Positions 89 to 8,829 of a DNA stretch of 10,894 nucleotides are shown one piece after another. The stretch is from assembly GCA_030748455.1 (NCBI GenBank), contig JASMLY010000002.1:1-10894 (forward strand), given 5' to 3'. The first letter of the stretch is position 1. Every line of letters starts with the position of its first letter. Origin of the DNA: Phycisphaerales bacterium (GTDB lineage Bacteria; Planctomycetota; Phycisphaerae; Phycisphaerales; SM1A02). Under the pieces are notes generated by a model that was not told the origin of the DNA, made no database searches, and saw only the letters and a list, made by a program, of their open reading frames with translations. A program made the position numbers and the translations under genes.

Positions 89-1249
89 ATGAAACGATTA
101 CCTTTTGAATACGCAACTCGAAACCTTGGACGTTCACCAATGCGTTTATTGCTCACAGTTTTTGGAAGCGGGCTTGTTGTGCTTCTCATTATGATTGCTG
201 GTGGCTTTATGGTTGGCATGCAAACTACGCTTGACGTAAGTGGTGCAAAAAATAATATCATGCTTCTTGGCGCTGGTAGCGTTGAAAGTGTTGAACGTAG
301 TGAAGTTGGCATGGACACAGCGGGCATTGTCGCTGGCTCTATTGATGGTTTTCGCAATCATGCTGGGATGGAGGGTGTGTCGCCAGAAATACACATTCAA
401 ATGCCACTAGAAGTAGACGGTGAAGACCGGTTAATTTTGATTCGTGGAGTTCGCCCAGAGGCCTTTCTTGTGCATGACCAAGTACAAATTGCGAGCGGAC
501 ATGCACCTAGAAATGGAAGAAATGAAATACTTATAGGAAAACTTGCAACACGAACTCTTGGTTATGAAAACCCAGAAGATGCACTTGGCGAGTCAATCAT
601 GCTTGATGATGATGCGTACACCATCACTGGTGTCTTAGAAGCAGACGGTGGAATTGTCGAGGGTGAGATGTGGACTTCGCTTACGGATTTACAAGTTACA
701 AGCCAACGCGATACGCTTTCTTGTGTCATCGTTGCTTTAGACGAAGCGAAGCCTAGCGATCTTGATATGTTTGCTGCAAGCAGAATTGATCTTGAACTTG
801 TTGCGATATCTGAAGACGAATATTTTTCTGCTTTATCTTCGTTTTACAAACCAATAGAATTAATGGTCGTGATGACGTGCATCATGATTGCTGTTGGAGG
901 CATGCTTGGTGGTTTTAATTCCACCTACGCGGCATTTGCAAGTAGAGTCCGCGAAGTAGGCGCACTGCAAGTTTTAGGTTACCAACGAGGTGCTATTGCA
1001 CTATCGCTCGTACAAGAGTCCATACTCTCCGCATCAATGGGTGCCATCATTGCTTGTTTGATTGCGATGTTCACCCTTGACGGATTTACTGTTCGATTTT
1101 CTATGGGGACTTTTACGTTATCAATGACCGCAGGTATTATTGCGCTTGGTGTTGGTTCTGGCTTGTTGCTCGGAGTCATTGGTGCGATTGCCCCTGCCCT
1201 GCGTTGTTTACGATTACCAATCCCAGAAGCGCTTCGCGCATCGGAATAA
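89..1249 (+). CDS. ABC transporter permease, FtsX/MacB family
   Basis: This is a 386-residue inner-membrane permease with the layout of the FtsX/MacB superfamily: an N-terminal helix at about residues 18-45, a large extracytoplasmic domain at about 46-250, and three C-terminal helices at about 257-280, 310-335 and 345-372. The segment ASRVREVGALQVLGYQ after the second helix is the cytoplasmic coupling loop that contacts the ATPase in this family (the usual form is 'R-x-R-E-I-G-x-L-R-A-x-G'). The C-terminus has the typical PALR...PEALRA motif. A strong AAGGAG site precedes the start. The upstream neighbour is the end of a similar permease, so a heterodimeric permease pair with an ATPase further upstream is likely. 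The downstream lipoprotein gene is 12 bases away. Members of this family move lipoproteins, antibiotics or peptides, or act as mechanotransmitters. The substrate here cannot be read from sequence. Confidence 0.9.
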   Translation: MKRLPFEYATRNLGRSPMRLLLTVFGSGLVVLLIMIAGGFMVGMQTTLDVSGAKNNIMLLGAGSVESVERSEVGMDTAGIVAGSIDGFRNHAGMEGVSPEIHIQMPLEVDGEDRLILIRGVRPEAFLVHDQVQIASGHAPRNGRNEILIGKLATRTLGYENPEDALGESIMLDDDAYTITGVLEADGGIVEGEMWTSLTDLQVTSQRDTLSCVIVALDEAKPSDLDMFAASRIDLELVAISEDEYFSALSSFYKPIELMVVMTCIMIAVGGMLGGFNSTYAAFASRVREVGALQVLGYQRGAIALSLVQESILSASMGAIIACLIAMFTLDGFTVRFSMGTFTLSMTAGIIALGVGSGLLLGVIGAIAPALRCLRLPIPEALRASE

Positions 1250-1261: not shown

Positions 1262-1828
1262 ATGAAACTACTTCTCACAGCATTGCTTGCATCAATCCTC
1301 ATTGGATGTGGTGGAACAGAAGAAAACACAACCCCGACCAACGTACAATCAAATGTTTTGCCTGATTCGTTTTTTGCAAAGGATAGACCACACGATGTGC
1401 AAGACCTTGCTGAAGTCAAAAAAACTGCAAAAAAAGGTGACGAAGTAACGTTCCTCGCGCGAATTGGAGGGAGAAAAAACGCGTCGTTCGTGCCGACGCT
1501 TTCGATGATGATCGTTGCTGACCCTGCACTGAAATCATGTGAAGTGATGAGTGAGGAAGAGCACTGCGCAACACCAGAGGATTACTGCTGTGAAAACCGC
1601 GACCTGTTGCGTGCGGGTTTAGGAACAATTCGATTTATGAATGACTCAGGAGATGCCTATCCATTTTCAGTCGAAGGAAGACACGGATTAGAACTATTAA
1701 AATTCGTTGTCATTACGGGGATCGTTCACGATATCTCTGAGAATGGGAATTTCATCGTTGATGCTTCAAAGGTTTGGGTGGGAGGAAAACCCTATTATGG
1801 TGATCTCAGAGCAGGTAGTGGCGAATAA
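1262..1828 (+). CDS. Small Cys-rich lipoprotein of unknown function
   Basis: The protein has 188 residues. The N-terminus (MKLLLTALLASILIGC) is a clear type II signal peptide with lipobox LIGC and lipidated Cys16. The mature part opens with a polar linker, then a domain at about 60-180 that begins EVTFLARIGGR and ends NGNFIVDASKVWV. Its alternation of short strands suggests a small beta-rich, possibly OB-like fold (inference). In the middle are four cysteines, C93, C102, C109 and C110, in a context ending TPEDYCC, which could be two disulfides or a metal site. I recall similar hypothetical proteins with a TPxDYCC segment from planctomycetes, but I cannot name a characterised family. It is the third gene of the permease operon and may be an accessory periplasmic subunit of that ABC system. 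Function unknown. Confidence 0.85.
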   Translation: MKLLLTALLASILIGCGGTEENTTPTNVQSNVLPDSFFAKDRPHDVQDLAEVKKTAKKGDEVTFLARIGGRKNASFVPTLSMMIVADPALKSCEVMSEEEHCATPEDYCCENRDLLRAGLGTIRFMNDSGDAYPFSVEGRHGLELLKFVVITGIVHDISENGNFIVDASKVWVGGKPYYGDLRAGSGE

Positions 1829-1867: not shown

Positions 1868-3574
1868 ATGCCACGGTACCGAGAGAGTAAAGGACTTAGA
1901 AGTTTTGGTCACTTAATCCGACCATGGGGTGGCCAAATAGCCACTGTGGTAGTTCTTGTGGGTCTGCTCGCCCTTGCAGATATGGTCTTGCCATGGGCGC
2001 TTTCGCTCCTTGTTGACGAAGTGTTCCCCGCTCTTTCATCTAATGAAGGTGGGTGGGAACTCCTGTGGATAATCCTTACTTCCCTTTGTGCGATCTACGT
2101 ACTTCGAAACGTCCTCTTCTTTATCAGCCGAATGATTTCCGTCCGAGTCAGCGAGCAAGTCTGCTTTAGCTTGCGTCAGCGATTGTTCAACCACATGCAA
2201 CAGCTTGGGATGAGTTTCTATAAATCAAACCGTCCAGGGCAAATAAGTTCTCGCGTGATGGACGACACGTTTCGAATTCAAACGTTCATACAAGACAAAC
2301 TTCCCACGCTGCTTCGATATATCCTTGAGTTTCAAATTCTCATTATTTTGCTGTACGTTGTAAACTGGAAACTTGCGCTTGCAAGTACAATCGTTCTTCC
2401 CCTGCACTTATGGACGTATAAAAAGTTTTATTCCCCAATTCGAGACAGCCATTACCGAGCACAAAAACATCTCGCAGACGCACACGGGAACCTGATCGAA
2501 TCGTTTATGGGCGCACAAGTCATTAAAGGGTTTTCGGCCGAACAACGAGAATCTGATTCCTTCATGCAAACAATTCGAGCAGGCAGAGATGACCAAATCA
2601 AAACACAGCGGTTCCAGTTTGCTCAAAAAGTTGTCGCAGATTTACTCGTAGGTTTGGGTACGATTCTTCTTCTTGGCTATGGTGCTTGGGAAGTACATGC
2701 CGGAGCTATGACGATCGGTGCATTTCTCATGTTCTTCTGGTATGTAAGGATGTTGTACCCTGCGGTTTTAGAAATCATCAGTGGAACTGGACATTTTTCG
2801 AGAACCTCTGCAAGTGTAGACCGAGTTTTAGAAATGCTCGAAGAGCCAACCGACGAAATTACGTACGATCTACGTACACGAACACAACCGTTGCAACTTG
2901 TTGGTCCAATCGAGTTTAGAGATGTCTCATTTTCCTATGAGGGAGAAGATCCTCTTCTGAAAAATTTGACCCTACTGATCGATGCCGGTGAGCACGTTGT
3001 GATTACTGGCGCTAGCGGTTCAGGAAAAAGCACTTGCATCAGTTTGCTCCCCCGCTTTAACGACCCAACGAGAGGAACAATCACCATTGGGGGACACGAT
3101 ATTCGAGACATTCGCCTTCAAGATGTCCGCGATATGTTCGGCGTTGCTTTTCAAGATGCGTTTTTGTTTAACGCTTCCATCTATGACAACCTTCGATATG
3201 CAAGACCGAGTGCTACGACACAAGAAATTGTTACAGCATGCAAACTTACTGGTGCTCATGGTTTTATCAAGCAACTTCCTGAGGGGTATTCCACTCGTAT
3301 TGGAGACAAGGGAGGCGAGCTCTCACATGGGCAAAAACAACGCATCAATCTCGCTCGAGCACTTGTGCGACAACCGCAAACGCTCATTATTGACGAAGCA
3401 ACAGCTTCGATTGAAGCTGATGCTGCAAAACAGATCATTAAGGATATCCTAGAACATATGTCTGGCAGAACCGTCATAATAGTGACGCACGATCCAACGA
3501 TCATGCAACTCGCTCACCGAGTTCTCACGATTGAACACAATACGATTACAAGCACTCCAAATACTGGAAACGAC
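1868..3574 (+). other. ABC exporter portion of the fused frame (residues 1-569)
   Basis: This half alone has the length and all catalytic motifs of a homodimeric MsbA/LmrA-type half-transporter. The H-loop region (IIVTHDPTIMQLAHRVLTI) is followed by only about 20 residues before Met570, about where such exporters normally end (often after a 'G-x-I-x-E-x-G' tail). So the exporter is complete, and it lacks only its own stop codon. Substrate unknown. Confidence 0.85.
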
Positions 3575-6241
3575 ATGAAACACCCAACAGTGAAACAAAA
3601 CAAACTCGGCCTCCTCGTTGGTGGGATGCTCTCATTATTGAGCTTTCTTGGTGGATGTTCAAGCACAGTTTCCACAAGTATGCTCGAAATGGAACAGCCG
3701 ACATCTTCAGGTGTCATCATCGAAAGTGATGAACCGGTCGATCTCGACGCACTTGCCAATGCAATCAACCGAGTCACAAACAAACCTCGACTCATCACGC
3801 TTGCGCAAGAGCCTGCACCCGTTGAAGAACCACGGGAGATCACCCCAGAAGAAATAGCGAATCTTGTTAGTGAAACCGTCCAAAGTTCCCCTAGTGACAT
3901 CTATGTACAGCTCGATGTCATGAATCCAACTGAAATTGGAGAGCTCATTGAACTTGTTGCAACTCGTTTTGCAACAGCCCATTCATATAAATCATCTGCG
4001 AACGCGCTAGAAGGTGTGCTCGAATCGCCTCCCGATGGTGTCACAGAAATACATTCCATCGCGAACAAAAATGAAACCGTTACAAAAATCATACGGTTTG
4101 GTTTTAGAACATACCGTTCACAACCACCTCAACTTTGGGTACAAGGGTTGCGTATCGAAAACGGAGAAATTTCCTCTAACGAAGACGCTGCTATCGCGAA
4201 AGACTTTGCAGCTGAAATTCTCCTAACTCTTGCTTCAACAAGAGCGGGTTTGCATATCGGAGATCTTGGAAAAGAACTTGTTCAACTCAGTTACATCGAT
4301 GCACCTGCAGCGATCGAAATACTCAATGGATTTGGAATCACAACATTCAACACACCTTCAGAATTACCCGATCAAGTAGACTGGGCGAAACTCCCCTACG
4401 TTGCTCTTATTCCAGAACCAGATACAAAACACACAGGGCTAGTTGGTGGAGCAGTCTCAGGTGGTGCTTTTGGTTTAACGATGGTGCCAAATACCGCAAG
4501 CACACTCTCCACAAGTATGGTTGCTTCCCCAACGACACAGTTGATCGTTTTTTACGATGAAGCCCGCCCTGAACAATTTAGCGATGTCGTCGAATTGCTT
4601 GTAGAACATGTCGACACACCTGCAAGGCAAATTTTCATCGAAGGAATGGTGCTCGAAATCAATGAAGATGGGCTTAAAGATATTGGGATTGATTGGAATC
4701 TAACTGACACCCCAAATCTTGTCACAGTCGATGCTGGTAAACCAAATGCTGGCACAGACAACGATTCGCTTGCGCTTTCCATTCTTGATTTAGATTTAAG
4801 CCGACCATTCAGTAATCCAAACTCATGGATTCTTGATGTCAACCTCCGAGCTTTGTTACGTGATGGCAAGGCAGAGATTTTGTCAAGACCAAGTGTTCTT
4901 ACACTCAACAATCGCCAGTCTACCATTCGAGTTGGGCAAGATATTCCAATTGCAACAAGTACCGCAGGGATCAGTAACGCTGATATGCTCTCCTTCAATT
5001 TCAAATATCTTCCAACGGGAATTATGCTCAACGTTCGCCCTAGAATTTCAGAAGACGGAAGTGAAGTAAGCATGTTGATCGACACTATTGTTTCGTCAAC
5101 AGTTCCAGGTGCCGATTTAGAAATTCGTGATGCAACTGATAAACTACTCGCATCAGCACCGACGATTTCAAGTAGAAGAGTGCAAACGTATGGGCGTATT
5201 CCTAATGACACACCATTCATTATTGGTGGACTCGTCAACAAGGAACATCATTCTATTCACGACAAAGTACCACTTCTAGGCGACCTTCCTCTCATTGGCG
5301 GTTTGTTTCAATCAGAACGAACAACCTCGACAAAAACCGAGGTGATTATCGTGCTCACACCCCACGTTCTTCCAGAGAACGACCGTATCCTGAGTGCGAT
5401 GCCAAAAGACGATCCCCGATTTGACAATGTAGGGAATGAGTTATTCCGTGATTCTTACAGGGTAAAACGCGATGATGTGTACGATTTAACTTTTTTGGAA
5501 AAGAACGAACAACTGCAAATGTATCGAGACCTTGCCAAAAATGCAATCGAAGAAAATTATTCACTCAAGTCTGAACCAGCTTTTTCACAATTTGCAGATG
5601 GCCATTTTCCTGGGGAATCCATTCTTGTCACTCGGATGGTTTACGAGATCACCAAACGCCTCGACCTTGCTGACATGATTCCCGCGTCACGCTTGGCATT
5701 TTTCAAAGAGGAGCAGCACGGTGGTATGGGTGTTCAATTCGTAGAAAGAGAACTTGCATCGATCATGAACAGCAGAGACGGAGACAAATTCTTCACAAAC
5801 AACCCAGGAAAAGCACTTGTAATGTCATTTGAACAAGGTAGAGCCGTTCCCACTGTGCAAACCATTCCTTGTGGTGACAGGAACTCATGGAAGGATTCAC
5901 TTTGGCAACTCAATCAACAATCCCAGAGTGCGACTCGATCAATTGTGATCCAAAGTGCTGCCGATCTCCTCAGGCTTCAACGCGCCGTTGCACTAAAACA
6001 TGTTGTCGAACTAAACAATGGTTCCGAATCTCTTGCACTTGATCAATTTCGAGTTGGACAGTACGTCCTCATTCCTGATATTGATCCTCGACAAGTGCAT
6101 ATCATTGATGAAGACGTTGCAAAGTATTTTTACCACACGGAACATTATTACGGTGCAACTTTGCAAGCAATCGAAGAAGGTCTTGACAAGATTGAGGAAG
6201 CACTCAAACGACCTGAGATTCAATCCTCTCTACACGATTGA
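1868..6241 (+). CDS. MsbA-type ABC exporter fused in frame to a secretin-like lipoprotein
   Basis: One open frame of 1457 codons with two recognisable halves. Residues 1 to about 330 form a type I exporter membrane domain with about six helices. Residues about 344-569 form a nucleotide-binding domain: Walker A GASGSGKST (381-389), Q-loop Gln429, signature LSHGQ (485-489), Walker B LIIDE with Asp509 and Glu510, and H-loop His541. The D-loop reads ASIEAD, with Glu where Asp is usual. Met570 opens a lipoprotein signal with lipobox Cys597. After an acidic linker and N-domain-like repeats comes a secretin domain at about 920-1170: RQIFIEGMVLEI near 920, SRPSVLTLNN, and VPLLGDLPLIGGLF from 1134. 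The last 285 or so residues are unrecognised. Lengths fit a full exporter (about 570) plus a full secretin. Such an exporter normally drives lipid or peptide export across the inner membrane, and a secretin forms a ring pore in the outer membrane. Whether the product stays joined is open. No Shine-Dalgarno site precedes the start. Confidence 0.8.
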   Translation: MPRYRESKGLRSFGHLIRPWGGQIATVVVLVGLLALADMVLPWALSLLVDEVFPALSSNEGGWELLWIILTSLCAIYVLRNVLFFISRMISVRVSEQVCFSLRQRLFNHMQQLGMSFYKSNRPGQISSRVMDDTFRIQTFIQDKLPTLLRYILEFQILIILLYVVNWKLALASTIVLPLHLWTYKKFYSPIRDSHYRAQKHLADAHGNLIESFMGAQVIKGFSAEQRESDSFMQTIRAGRDDQIKTQRFQFAQKVVADLLVGLGTILLLGYGAWEVHAGAMTIGAFLMFFWYVRMLYPAVLEIISGTGHFSRTSASVDRVLEMLEEPTDEITYDLRTRTQPLQLVGPIEFRDVSFSYEGEDPLLKNLTLLIDAGEHVVITGASGSGKSTCISLLPRFNDPTRGTITIGGHDIRDIRLQDVRDMFGVAFQDAFLFNASIYDNLRYARPSATTQEIVTACKLTGAHGFIKQLPEGYSTRIGDKGGELSHGQKQRINLARALVRQPQTLIIDEATASIEADAAKQIIKDILEHMSGRTVIIVTHDPTIMQLAHRVLTIEHNTITSTPNTGNDMKHPTVKQNKLGLLVGGMLSLLSFLGGCSSTVSTSMLEMEQPTSSGVIIESDEPVDLDALANAINRVTNKPRLITLAQEPAPVEEPREITPEEIANLVSETVQSSPSDIYVQLDVMNPTEIGELIELVATRFATAHSYKSSANALEGVLESPPDGVTEIHSIANKNETVTKIIRFGFRTYRSQPPQLWVQGLRIENGEISSNEDAAIAKDFAAEILLTLASTRAGLHIGDLGKELVQLSYIDAPAAIEILNGFGITTFNTPSELPDQVDWAKLPYVALIPEPDTKHTGLVGGAVSGGAFGLTMVPNTASTLSTSMVASPTTQLIVFYDEARPEQFSDVVELLVEHVDTPARQIFIEGMVLEINEDGLKDIGIDWNLTDTPNLVTVDAGKPNAGTDNDSLALSILDLDLSRPFSNPNSWILDVNLRALLRDGKAEILSRPSVLTLNNRQSTIRVGQDIPIATSTAGISNADMLSFNFKYLPTGIMLNVRPRISEDGSEVSMLIDTIVSSTVPGADLEIRDATDKLLASAPTISSRRVQTYGRIPNDTPFIIGGLVNKEHHSIHDKVPLLGDLPLIGGLFQSERTTSTKTEVIIVLTPHVLPENDRILSAMPKDDPRFDNVGNELFRDSYRVKRDDVYDLTFLEKNEQLQMYRDLAKNAIEENYSLKSEPAFSQFADGHFPGESILVTRMVYEITKRLDLADMIPASRLAFFKEEQHGGMGVQFVERELASIMNSRDGDKFFTNNPGKALVMSFEQGRAVPTVQTIPCGDRNSWKDSLWQLNQQSQSATRSIVIQSAADLLRLQRAVALKHVVELNNGSESLALDQFRVGQYVLIPDIDPRQVHIIDEDVAKYFYHTEHYYGATLQAIEEGLDKIEEALKRPEIQSSLHD
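3575..3658 (+). other. Internal type II (lipoprotein) signal peptide and candidate internal start
   Basis: Met570 begins a textbook lipoprotein signal. The n-region has Lys571, Lys576 and Lys579. The hydrophobic core runs from about Leu580 to Leu594. The lipobox is LGGC with Cys597 (28th residue from Met570), followed by Ser-Ser. A GGAAA stretch (3566-3570) lies 4 bases before this ATG and could be a weak ribosome site. The ATG is part of ATGA, the usual four-base stop/start overlap, but the TGA is not in the exporter frame. Either translation restarts here, or the helix is an internal signal in a longer precursor. Confidence 0.75.
3575..6241 (+). other. Secretin-like lipoprotein portion (residues 570-1457)
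   Basis: Read from Met570 this would be an 888-residue outer-membrane lipoprotein. After the lipobox comes an acidic, Pro/Glu-rich linker to about residue 680. Next are alpha/beta repeats that look like secretin N-domains, for example VQLSYIDAPAAIEILNGFGI and TQLIVFYDE...VVELLVEHVD just before 920. The GspD/PilQ-type secretin core follows at about 920-1170, with the family's strand and lip motifs ending EVIIVLTPHVL. The final 285 or so residues, rich in charged residues and helix-forming stretches, match no S-domain or pilotin-binding tail I know and are far longer than either. No other type II, III or IV secretion gene is visible nearby. Confidence 0.8.
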
Positions 6242-6666
6242 TTCCAAGCACTCCAAGTTGTCAAAGATCCTAAAAGTAAGGCGATACCAATCGCAGCGTA
6301 CAATGTGCCAAGATAGGCATCTTCTAAACCACTTGTTCTCAACAGTCGCCCCCCTGCCATCATAACCCCGACAAGTAACCATTGCCAAAGAGAAAACACA
6401 CCAAACACACACGTGTGATCACCACGTGCGTGAATACGTACGATGGCTCTTCGTGCAGATTTGCGTAGTACGAATACTCCCTTTGTGCCACCGACTAACA
6501 GTGCAAGTGCGAGTAACACGTAGATCCAACTCGATCGAGATATAAAGAGCCACTTCAAACCAACATAGAGAAGTCCGAAGCCAACAAGTGACCACATGGA
6601 TGCAGCGATTAGAAGTTGCGTTCTTCGAGTTGCCGCAGGTTTGAATCTATTTTTGCAATTCGACAT
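6220..6666 (-). CDS. Small integral membrane protein, conserved-looking, function unknown
   Basis: The protein has 148 residues with about four hydrophobic helices at roughly 18-40, 43-68, 88-106 and 114-138. The N-terminus is basic (RFKPAATRRTQ). A polar loop ARRAIVRIHARGDHTCVFG links helices 2 and 3, and GGRLLRTSG follows helix 3. I recall uncharacterised bacterial membrane proteins with a similar 'R-I-x-A-R-G-D-x-x-C-x-x-G' loop and 'GRLLR-S' segment, but no function. The ATG at 6666 lies inside the end of the upstream hydrolase gene (20-base overlap), suggesting translational coupling, because no good Shine-Dalgarno site is seen. Its 3' end overlaps the convergent secretin frame by 22 bases. 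Met24 is a less likely alternative start. Confidence 0.75.
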   Translation of the reverse strand: MSNCKNRFKPAATRRTQLLIAASMWSLVGFGLLYVGLKWLFISRSSWIYVLLALALLVGGTKGVFVLRKSARRAIVRIHARGDHTCVFGVFSLWQWLLVGVMMAGGRLLRTSGLEDAYLGTLYAAIGIALLLGSLTTWSAWNQSCRED

Positions 6667-8779
6667 CGAGTGGTAGGTCGATTGTAATCGAAGCAGAATA
6701 GTAATTCGTGGGATGATGAAGCGTTTTGTAGATCACACTACAATCGCGTACAACTTTAAAAGTACCGAGTAACTGGTCTTTGTATTGCACGACTACAGGT
6801 TGATCGAGATCAAGTAGAAGATCATGAAGATATATGGTTATCTTTTTTACATCTGAATGGTGGATTGTTATCGTTTGATCGTCAACTGACGCAACGATTG
6901 TTGATCGAGCCACTGGTTCATCAACACCAAGCCAGTAGAGTTTGTCGTGCAGAACATCGTCTTGCACCCAGACAACCTTTTTGGGGTAGGGATTTCGTTC
7001 AAATGTAGCCATCCAAGGAAACGAGACCGTTTCCTTGCAATGCATCCAATGGCCCAACCCTTCGTGTACGAGCGCTTGGTGTTTGTACCCTTTGGGGTCT
7101 GATTTGTGCAATGCACCAAGTTGTGCTTTCCATTGCAACGCAATTGCATTGCGACTGTATGCTGAATCTTCAGCACCAACGTGTAGCGCAAAGGGAAGGT
7201 TTCGAAGTCCTTCTGGGACAGTTTCGTTCGGATGGCCAGCCATCATCGCTGCGGCTGCAAACCTGTCAGACATTCGTGGTGCGAGTTGGTACACACCATC
7301 ACCTCCCGCACTATACCCAAGTAGATACACCTTGTTTGGATTGACCCCCTCACTAAGCACCATATGGGTAATCAATTTGTCAAGCATGGGATCAATATGT
7401 GATTGATGCCACATGTTCCATGTGTCCGTTGGCGCGCGTGGCACAACGTAGACACCTTCTTCAAGGGTGTACAGTTCCTTTTGATTGTTCCACTGCTGCG
7501 TGTTCACTTCAGGAGGCGCCCCACCACCGCCATGCAAAGAAATCCAGAGAGATTTCTTCCCTCGTGGAGCATCCCCAAAAACCCTGTACCAAAAAGGCAT
7601 CCTGTACCCATCATGTTCGATGAGTTGTTCTGTAAGAGTTGGCTTGCGTTCGTGCCATGCAAGATCCGCAGCGCTGAAAGCTTCAAATTCTGTTAGGCCA
7701 CCATAAAAATCAATTATCAACTCGGTATCTATACGCTTTGTAATTGACTCACTCTTTGTTTGAAAGGTGTAGGTCTCTCCTTGTGGACACATAAATGTAA
7801 GATGATCGTTTGCATCTGCACGCTCATCTTTCGATATTCCTTCAAAAACAACTTCGCCCTGATCGTTTGAAACGATGACTTCCTGCGCTATTCTCGAGCC
7901 ATCTTTGTCCCTGATACGAATCCGAACTCGAACGTCCTCTGTGATGTGTTTGTTTGTGTAGCGATCTGTCACATCTACTGCGCCGTACGTCGTCACATCT
8001 GGCAGCCAAACAAGAGGAAAGTGCTGTGAAGACTCTTCCCACGTCACTGCAAATATTGCGTGTTGTGGATGCCCCTTTGTTGCTTTTGATGCAGAATCAT
8101 CAAACCAAGCCTTGTCTACTTCACTTGTATTGGCTTCAGTGTAATGCCAACCTTGATCCCAAAACTCGATCCAAGAGTGGTTACCACTTTCGTTGTACCA
8201 AAGCGGTGTCCCTGTAAATCGAGCAGGAACACCAACACTTCTGCAGGCATCGATCAACAGAATGCTCAACCCACTACAGGACGCCATGCCCGCTTCGATC
8301 GATTCAAAAGGTGATTGATCTGCTTTTGGGCGCTGCGTAGAGTAGTGCACGTCAACCATGTCATACAAGCTTTGGTTGAGAAGAATCGCCGCTTCGGTTG
8401 GTGTGGTTGCATCTTTGACAATCTCTGAAAACCGTGCATGAAAATCACTTCGCCAATCCTCTCGCCGTTCGTTGACATTCGAATATGGCAAGATGCAATC
8501 AAAGAAGAGCTCCTTGGAAACCTGATCTTTCCACGGAGCGTTCTGCCACGCTTCGTATGCGAGATTGCAATTCTGAAGTAGAAATTCACCTGTGAGTGTT
8601 TTCAGATCTTCTTCTGGCATGTGCGTCAATAGCCACGCCATACCCTCCTTTTGATTCGCTGGCACCGTACGGATAGCAAGTTCGATTTCATGCCTATTCT
8701 CAGCAGCAAGATCAAGTTGCTTCTGAAACGCTTCCCCACCAACTACGAAGCCAATCATCATCGGTATCCATATAAACAT
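6647..8779 (-). CDS. Secreted two-domain protein: transglutaminase-like plus alpha/beta-hydrolase
   Basis: From the ATG at 8779 this is 710 residues. The N-terminus (MFIWIPMMIGFVVGGEA) looks like an export signal, though it lacks basic residues. A transglutaminase-like domain follows: Cys168 in MASCSGLSILLIDACRSVGVPARF-type context and His201 in GNHSWIEFW. The third triad position appears to be Glu215 (WHYTEAN) where Asp is usual. After a linker with beta-rich character at about 250-380 comes an alpha/beta-hydrolase domain: oxyanion motif HGGGG (416-420), nucleophile Ser490 in GYSAGG, and probable catalytic His577 in GLGHW. It resembles PHB-depolymerase/feruloyl-esterase-like proteins. A GTG at 8806 would add nine residues. 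The ATG is preferred because the signal starts there and a -10-like box sits 6 bases upstream. It probably acts in the periplasm or outside the cell on peptides, esters or polymers. Substrate unknown. Confidence 0.85.
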   Translation of the reverse strand: MFIWIPMMIGFVVGGEAFQKQLDLAAENRHEIELAIRTVPANQKEGMAWLLTHMPEEDLKTLTGEFLLQNCNLAYEAWQNAPWKDQVSKELFFDCILPYSNVNERREDWRSDFHARFSEIVKDATTPTEAAILLNQSLYDMVDVHYSTQRPKADQSPFESIEAGMASCSGLSILLIDACRSVGVPARFTGTPLWYNESGNHSWIEFWDQGWHYTEANTSEVDKAWFDDSASKATKGHPQHAIFAVTWEESSQHFPLVWLPDVTTYGAVDVTDRYTNKHITEDVRVRIRIRDKDGSRIAQEVIVSNDQGEVVFEGISKDERADANDHLTFMCPQGETYTFQTKSESITKRIDTELIIDFYGGLTEFEAFSAADLAWHERKPTLTEQLIEHDGYRMPFWYRVFGDAPRGKKSLWISLHGGGGAPPEVNTQQWNNQKELYTLEEGVYVVPRAPTDTWNMWHQSHIDPMLDKLITHMVLSEGVNPNKVYLLGYSAGGDGVYQLAPRMSDRFAAAAMMAGHPNETVPEGLRNLPFALHVGAEDSAYSRNAIALQWKAQLGALHKSDPKGYKHQALVHEGLGHWMHCKETVSFPWMATFERNPYPKKVVWVQDDVLHDKLYWLGVDEPVARSTIVASVDDQTITIHHSDVKKITIYLHDLLLDLDQPVVVQYKDQLLGTFKVVRDCSVIYKTLHHPTNYYSASITIDLPLDVELQK

Positions 8780-8785
8780 GGCATC

Positions 8786-8791
8786 ACTATA
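8786..8791 (-). promoter_or_regulatory. Candidate -10 box of the transglutaminase/hydrolase gene
   Basis: On the minus strand TATAGT ends 6 bases before the ATG at 8779. A weak -35-like CTGACG lies 19 bases further upstream (8811-8816). There is no Shine-Dalgarno site. The -10 box falls inside the alternative GTG-started extension, which argues for the ATG and a leaderless message. Confidence 0.4.
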
Positions 8792-8829
8792 CGGCAAATT
8801 CAACACCTGTCGTCAGTAACGACGTCGAG

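Follow-up and report, generated by a model that had tools for sequence, protein, structure and literature searches.

A conserved Phycisphaerae gene that encodes an ABC exporter and a secretin in one reading frame

In this study, we analysed a 10,894-nucleotide stretch of DNA from a Phycisphaerales bacterium (hereafter the window), and confirmed that one frame there, at positions 1868-6241 of the forward strand, encodes a complete ABC exporter and, after it, a complete secretin, and that this frame is real and not an artefact. It starts with ATG, ends with TGA and encodes 1457 amino acids with zero in-frame stops between, arranged as ABC exporter, linker, signal-like segment, secretin and C-terminal domain. 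Both halves belong to known families; what may be new is their pairing, whose function we infer. The fusion may be an undescribed way of moving something out of the cell in a little-studied planctomycete group. As to how it works, we consider it reasonably probable that the gene yields one precursor, which an internal signal and a signal peptidase would divide into an exporter and a secretin working together, with an internal start probably adding further secretin in the window's clade.

The sequence-only reading of this DNA had described an uninterrupted frame holding complete exporter and secretin-like halves, with the Walker A, LSHGQ and H-loop motifs of an exporter in the first of them, and all of these elements were recovered. 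The exporter half consists of a transmembrane domain (residues 29-295, 1952-2752, forward strand as for all features of this frame; Pfam ABC_membrane, 1e-37) and a nucleotide-binding domain core (residues 364-513, 2957-3406; Pfam ABC_tran, 1.3e-28), with GASGSGKS starting at residue 381, LSHGQ at 485-489 and His541. Both domains together with Walker A, signature and H-loop identify it as an ABC exporter, and in an alignment of 35 sequences Lys387 of Walker A is invariant and His541 nearly so. In the secretin half, an N-terminal domain (3884-4249) with a weak match to a fold common to BamC and others is followed by a ring domain and the secretin core (4250-5374). Pfam Secretin (PF00263) was found at residues 996-1168 (2.2e-37, 128.7 bits against a cut-off of 27.5), and this score and the fold matches place the half in the secretin superfamily; all three Pfam domains score far over their cut-offs. 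The PDB search was run with the secretin half alone, while a mixed alignment of fused and stand-alone proteins ranked exporters first. Past the core lies a conserved C-terminal domain of 286 residues (5381-6238), confidently modelled (pLDDT 90.7), for which NCBIfam gave no match at E 0.1 and Foldseek no clear structural match (best E 0.34).

In a search with the whole fusion against about 5.8 billion proteins, 7993 candidates were scored and 559 of them matched at E <= 1e-3. All three domains occur in one protein in 115 of the best 120 of these 559, the window's own included, and the other 5 are short only of the membrane-domain call, though such a sample favours fused proteins because the query itself was fused. 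Named organisms among these listed homologues are Planctomycetota, several of them Phycisphaerae, together with one 'PVC group bacterium' and one 'bacterium'. An indel or stop near 3540-3575, which the sequence-only reading had named as the event that could undo the fusion, breaks the frame in none of the 13 near relatives, each from a separate genome record: the junction is open in 13/13 and all 13 are fused. One TGA was scored within the matched stretch of G005, yet its frame runs uninterrupted for 1456 amino acids, thus the stop sits at the far C-terminal end. Fused loci lie in part on single contigs of 3.9-7.4 Mb. Furthermore, the linker codons evolve as expected of translated protein sequence, with dN/dS of 0.16-0.56 in 11 of 16 comparisons (3 were saturated and 2 not evaluated), the pairs being non-independent and some holding few changes.

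Genome scans at E <= 1e-40, in which the best 2-3 candidates per genome were scored, gave matches in at least 31 of 397 genomes of the class, at least 61 of 301 of the order and at least 12 of 392 of the phylum (overlapping sets); these are lower bounds because of the few candidates scored per genome and the strict E-values. The scans yielded 59 further loci, making 73 in all with the window, and 72 of them entered a quick LG+G4 tree with midpoint root (L134 was dropped as too short). It had been asked whether relatives encode the two halves as one frame, as neighbours or far apart, and among these 72 loci the arrangement is fused in 42, adjacent in 21 (20 as two close genes with the exporter first and 1 with the pore first) and other in 9, where no exporter stands beside the pore or the contig edge is reached. 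L087 was counted as fused though its exporter spans two frames, and L135 is cut by a contig end. In the 20 exporter-first pairs, the exporter frame overlaps the secretin frame or stops no more than 155 nt from it. Reversed order was seen in two loci, L108, with the exporter directly downstream, and the more distant L144, where the exporter begins 273 nt after the pore. The window's clade (14 rows) is wholly fused, fused members sit to either side of the midpoint root, and at least three changes between being fused and being paired are required. As a control, the surroundings of 20 other secretins of the 13 near genomes were searched, and none showed an exporter match at E 1e-6 (0/20), several of the flanks being short or cut by contig ends (e.g. 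L157, L159 and L161). Distances of the exporter half and the secretin half correlate across 60 loci (r 0.91, shared ancestry not removed). The exporter-secretin arrangement is old and conserved in this planctomycete group, and the proposal of a co-translated exporter-pore pair stands, since one frame forces co-translation and the pairing is conserved.

Relatives with clearly separate, unlinked genes, the other result that would have spoken against such a pair, did not appear: separate genes are mostly neighbours, as in the 21 adjacent loci and L144. Some genomes have a secretin without a close exporter. A search with the exporter half, run on 8 genomes whose secretin has no visible adjacent exporter and on two positives, G103 and G343, found nothing above 32% identity in 7 of the 8; in the exception, G464, there is a 42% match, but on a different contig from the secretin. 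G398, with a secretin fragment at a contig edge, gave no exporter-half match at E <= 1e-60. Three of the 8 genomes have the secretin at a contig edge: besides G398, G371 and G359 are cut at the upstream contig end. Two further loci, L120 and L125, also end at contig edges. In addition, a search with the secretin half found 404 proteins, and 58 of the best 120 listed carry the secretin domain alone, a few of them being fragments. Both results count against an obligate exporter-secretin pair, and some lineages may keep the secretin alone, the assemblies concerned being mostly fragmented.

How the two halves could part is suggested by the junction. A short linker, variable in the alignment (3548-3574), follows the exporter and runs for about 9 residues before the hydrophobic segment in the window, and for about 35-95 in distant members. 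The hydrophobic signal-like core, LGLLVGGMLSLLSF (residues 580-593, 3605-3646), is followed by LGGC (3647-3658), a loose-pattern lipobox match with a predicted cut before Cys597, a motif that would fit a lipoprotein secretin precursor. By loose patterns, the segment is lipobox-like in 25 of the 42 fused frames, AxA-like in 16 and neither in 1 (L133, where it is visible by eye), and the 20 paired secretins open with like segments, 12 lipobox-like and 8 AxA-like; some of the lipobox-like matches, such as PPAC, NPGC and TTSC, are poor lipoboxes. Since these segments lie between a cytoplasmic ATPase and a protein bound for the outer membrane, they are most naturally read as internal cleavable signals, and we infer a signal peptidase cut between the halves.

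We propose the following mechanism. The gene would yield a single precursor holding two partner proteins, of which the exporter half would insert in the inner membrane and expose its ATPase to the cytoplasm. The hydrophobic segment (580-593) would act as an internal signal by which the secretin half passes through the inner membrane into the periplasm, and the halves would be separated by signal peptidase II in the lipobox clade, to which the window belongs, or by signal peptidase I in the AxA clade. The freed secretin would assemble in the outer membrane, where its ring might couple physically with the exporter in a complex and serve as the exit for a substrate handed over from the inner membrane; that the two work together is our proposed reason why they are kept together. 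A secretin ring is built from 12-15 copies and an exporter from two, and we therefore propose that, in the window's clade, translation starting internally at the conserved Met570 probably adds secretin. A trans-envelope export role for the pair is plausible, while two observations count against the model, namely that no periplasmic adaptor by which the exporter could dock to the ring lies within the fusion frame and that the genes beyond the pair differ between clades.

Alternatively, the frame might hold two genes that merely lack a stop between them, with the secretin made mainly from the internal ATG at 3575-3577 (forward strand; Met570 of MKHP) and the read-through product tolerated or degraded. 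The segment opens with MKHP in 45 of 47 near homologues, and the remaining two have MRHP and LKHP, the sole one without Met thus having Leu, a possible start codon; the residues just before vary, and the segment resembles a lipoprotein N-terminus. Within the window's clade the conserved MKHP looks like a start site, and GGAAA lies just 5' of the ATG in the window. However, no ribosome-binding motif is shared before this ATG across 14 near loci (by eye), and dN/dS of the linker is below 1 in all 11 comparisons that gave values. Beyond the near clade the segment has no conserved start codon, and three of the 42 fused frames (L102, L124 and L129) have no ATG, GTG or TTG within 30 codons upstream of it, thus the precursor route is the plain reading there. 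There is no stop after the exporter half, so the exporter would be made only as part of the fusion. We consider this alternative unlikely: a fused chain is unavoidable without a stop, and we therefore favour a precursor that is cleaved in all clades and, in that of the window, supplemented by secretin made from the internal start.

A second alternative is that the fusion stays uncleaved as one trans-envelope protein, the segment remaining as a membrane helix that tethers the secretin to the exporter. The single frame kept in 42 of 72 loci and the longer linkers of distant members would agree with it, but two deep clades place possible motifs of different peptidases at the same spot, exporter and secretin are separate genes in 20 of the 72 loci, and a ring of 12-15 subunits would have to carry 6-7 exporters. 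We regard it as improbable, and the earlier suggestion of one mature polypeptide across both membranes is not favoured, because the halves are separated by a signal-like segment that bears a possible cleavage motif. It is more improbable still that the two proteins are only co-expressed for shared assembly or regulation, for instance with the exporter supplying lipid for the pore and no substrate passed between them. Secretins without a close exporter in some genomes, and secretins followed by an MscS channel (L138 and L139), in L138 together with an NMT1/TrkA protein, would suit such a reading, while an old fusion and adjacency in both gene orders point to a close relation. Finally, a sequencing or assembly artefact at the junction found no support and is ruled out by independent assemblies, the 42 fused loci including that of G256, a single contig of 4,291,168 bases.

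The junction also appears to be a point of exchange between strains. L011 and L013 share 93-94% DNA identity over three stretches, about 16.5 kb in all, whereas identity falls to 44-76% from the codons just past MKHP to about 5 kb downstream, and is 83% in the 50-codon block holding the junction. The replaced block (11736-16698 in L011, 11736-16537 in L013) comprises the secretin half and the next gene, which appear, from this identity pattern, to have been swapped as one block at the signal segment. Part of the replaced block is a gene for a protein with a transglutaminase-like domain, of 719 amino acids in the window (6650-8806, reverse strand); its cluster occurs in 14/14 near loci, and in 13 of them it lies just downstream of the fusion on the opposite strand.

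Upstream of the fusion in the window lie a MacB-like FtsX permease recognised by Pfam (89-1249, forward strand), which is the end of a MacAB-TolC-like set cut by the window's left edge, and a small lipoprotein-like gene (1262-1828, forward strand; N-terminus LIGCGG by eye), which has no Pfam match and whose cluster was found in 8 loci. In 7 of the 14 near loci, one of them the window, the fusion is immediately preceded by these two genes, and in L004-L008 and L010 an OEP duct, an HlyD adaptor, an ABC-ATPase-like ORF (by clustering) and a second FtsX permease lie further upstream. In L009 the OEP and HlyD set is downstream of the fusion instead, and in 6 of the 14 near loci OEP/HlyD genes are not in the fetched flank. 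In another clade, the paired loci L088, L091-L094, L096, L098 and L100 have a fumarase, then a large subtilase, then the exporter; the one subtilase scanned has a P-domain, and the subtilase might serve as a substrate or in processing. A glycosyltransferase-methyltransferase follows the secretin in L088 and three other paired loci. Ion-channel neighbours occur beside relatives of the secretin half, as MscS with the NMT1/TrkA protein in L138 (3156-6479) and MscS in L139 (5853-6998), where a gene equal in length to the NMT1/TrkA gene is also present, and a TrkA/ion-channel protein (6837-7961) is beside the fused member L102. No neighbour is conserved throughout, thus we propose no substrate.

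To our knowledge, secretins function in type II and III secretion, in pili and in the release of filamentous phage, ABC exporters reaching the outside use TolC-type ducts, and a conserved ABC exporter-secretin pairing fits no known kind of export system. We tentatively put forward, as a possibility somewhat short of probable, an undescribed trans-envelope export route of Phycisphaerae: a self-separating polyprotein that would supply an exporter and its dedicated secretin in one translation event, and whose pore half strains could exchange at the internal signal. The fusion makes explicit an exporter-secretin pairing that would otherwise be guessed from neighbourhood, and offers a natural test case of one bacterial polypeptide divided between two membranes. 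No ABC exporter-secretin system was found among the open-access PMC titles and abstract starts listed; in the portions available, PMC8277102 matched only through the word 'secreting' and PMC11131199 through 'enzyme-secreting', and two table rows of PMC3422733 class secretins under the type II/III pathway.

The pair resembles known systems in its parts and differs from them in the combination. As in type I secretion and MacAB-TolC, an inner-membrane ABC exporter would have a duct in the outer membrane as its partner, but the duct is a secretin instead of a TolC-type outer membrane factor, and the fusion frame holds no HlyD/MacA adaptor, the MacAB-TolC-like set upstream in 7 of 14 near loci being separate. 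A secretin core with a ring domain before it is shared with GspD of type II secretion and PilQ of the type IV pilus, whereas the present secretin has the 286-residue domain past its core and is fused to, or lies beside, an ABC exporter. It scores below the curated cut-offs for GspD (TIGR02517, 165.4 bits against 351), PilQ, MshL and SctC; the other secretins elsewhere in near genomes are of about 815-910 and 570-590 amino acids, and no GspE, GspF or GspG partners were found among 7 other window proteins and 30 selected neighbour proteins. The exporter half is a full exporter like MsbA, Sav1866 and P-glycoprotein, with P-glycoprotein as its best PDB match, Sav1866 (2hyd) at E 2.1e-88 and NCBIfam matches to MsbA_rel and MsbA_lipidA, but unlike these it runs on into a secretin. 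Its score of 314.3 bits is far below the 602 required of the MsbA lipid A flippase (TIGR02203), and each of 6 genomes has at least two further exporters with higher MsbA scores, none of them over the cut-off. A likeness in logic is seen in the FbcH cytochrome b/c1 precursor of Bradyrhizobium, in which a membrane protein and an exported partner are made as one precursor and split by signal peptidase at an internal signal; the proteins are unrelated and form a respiratory complex, while the precursor logic is the same as that proposed here for the exporter-secretin fusion.
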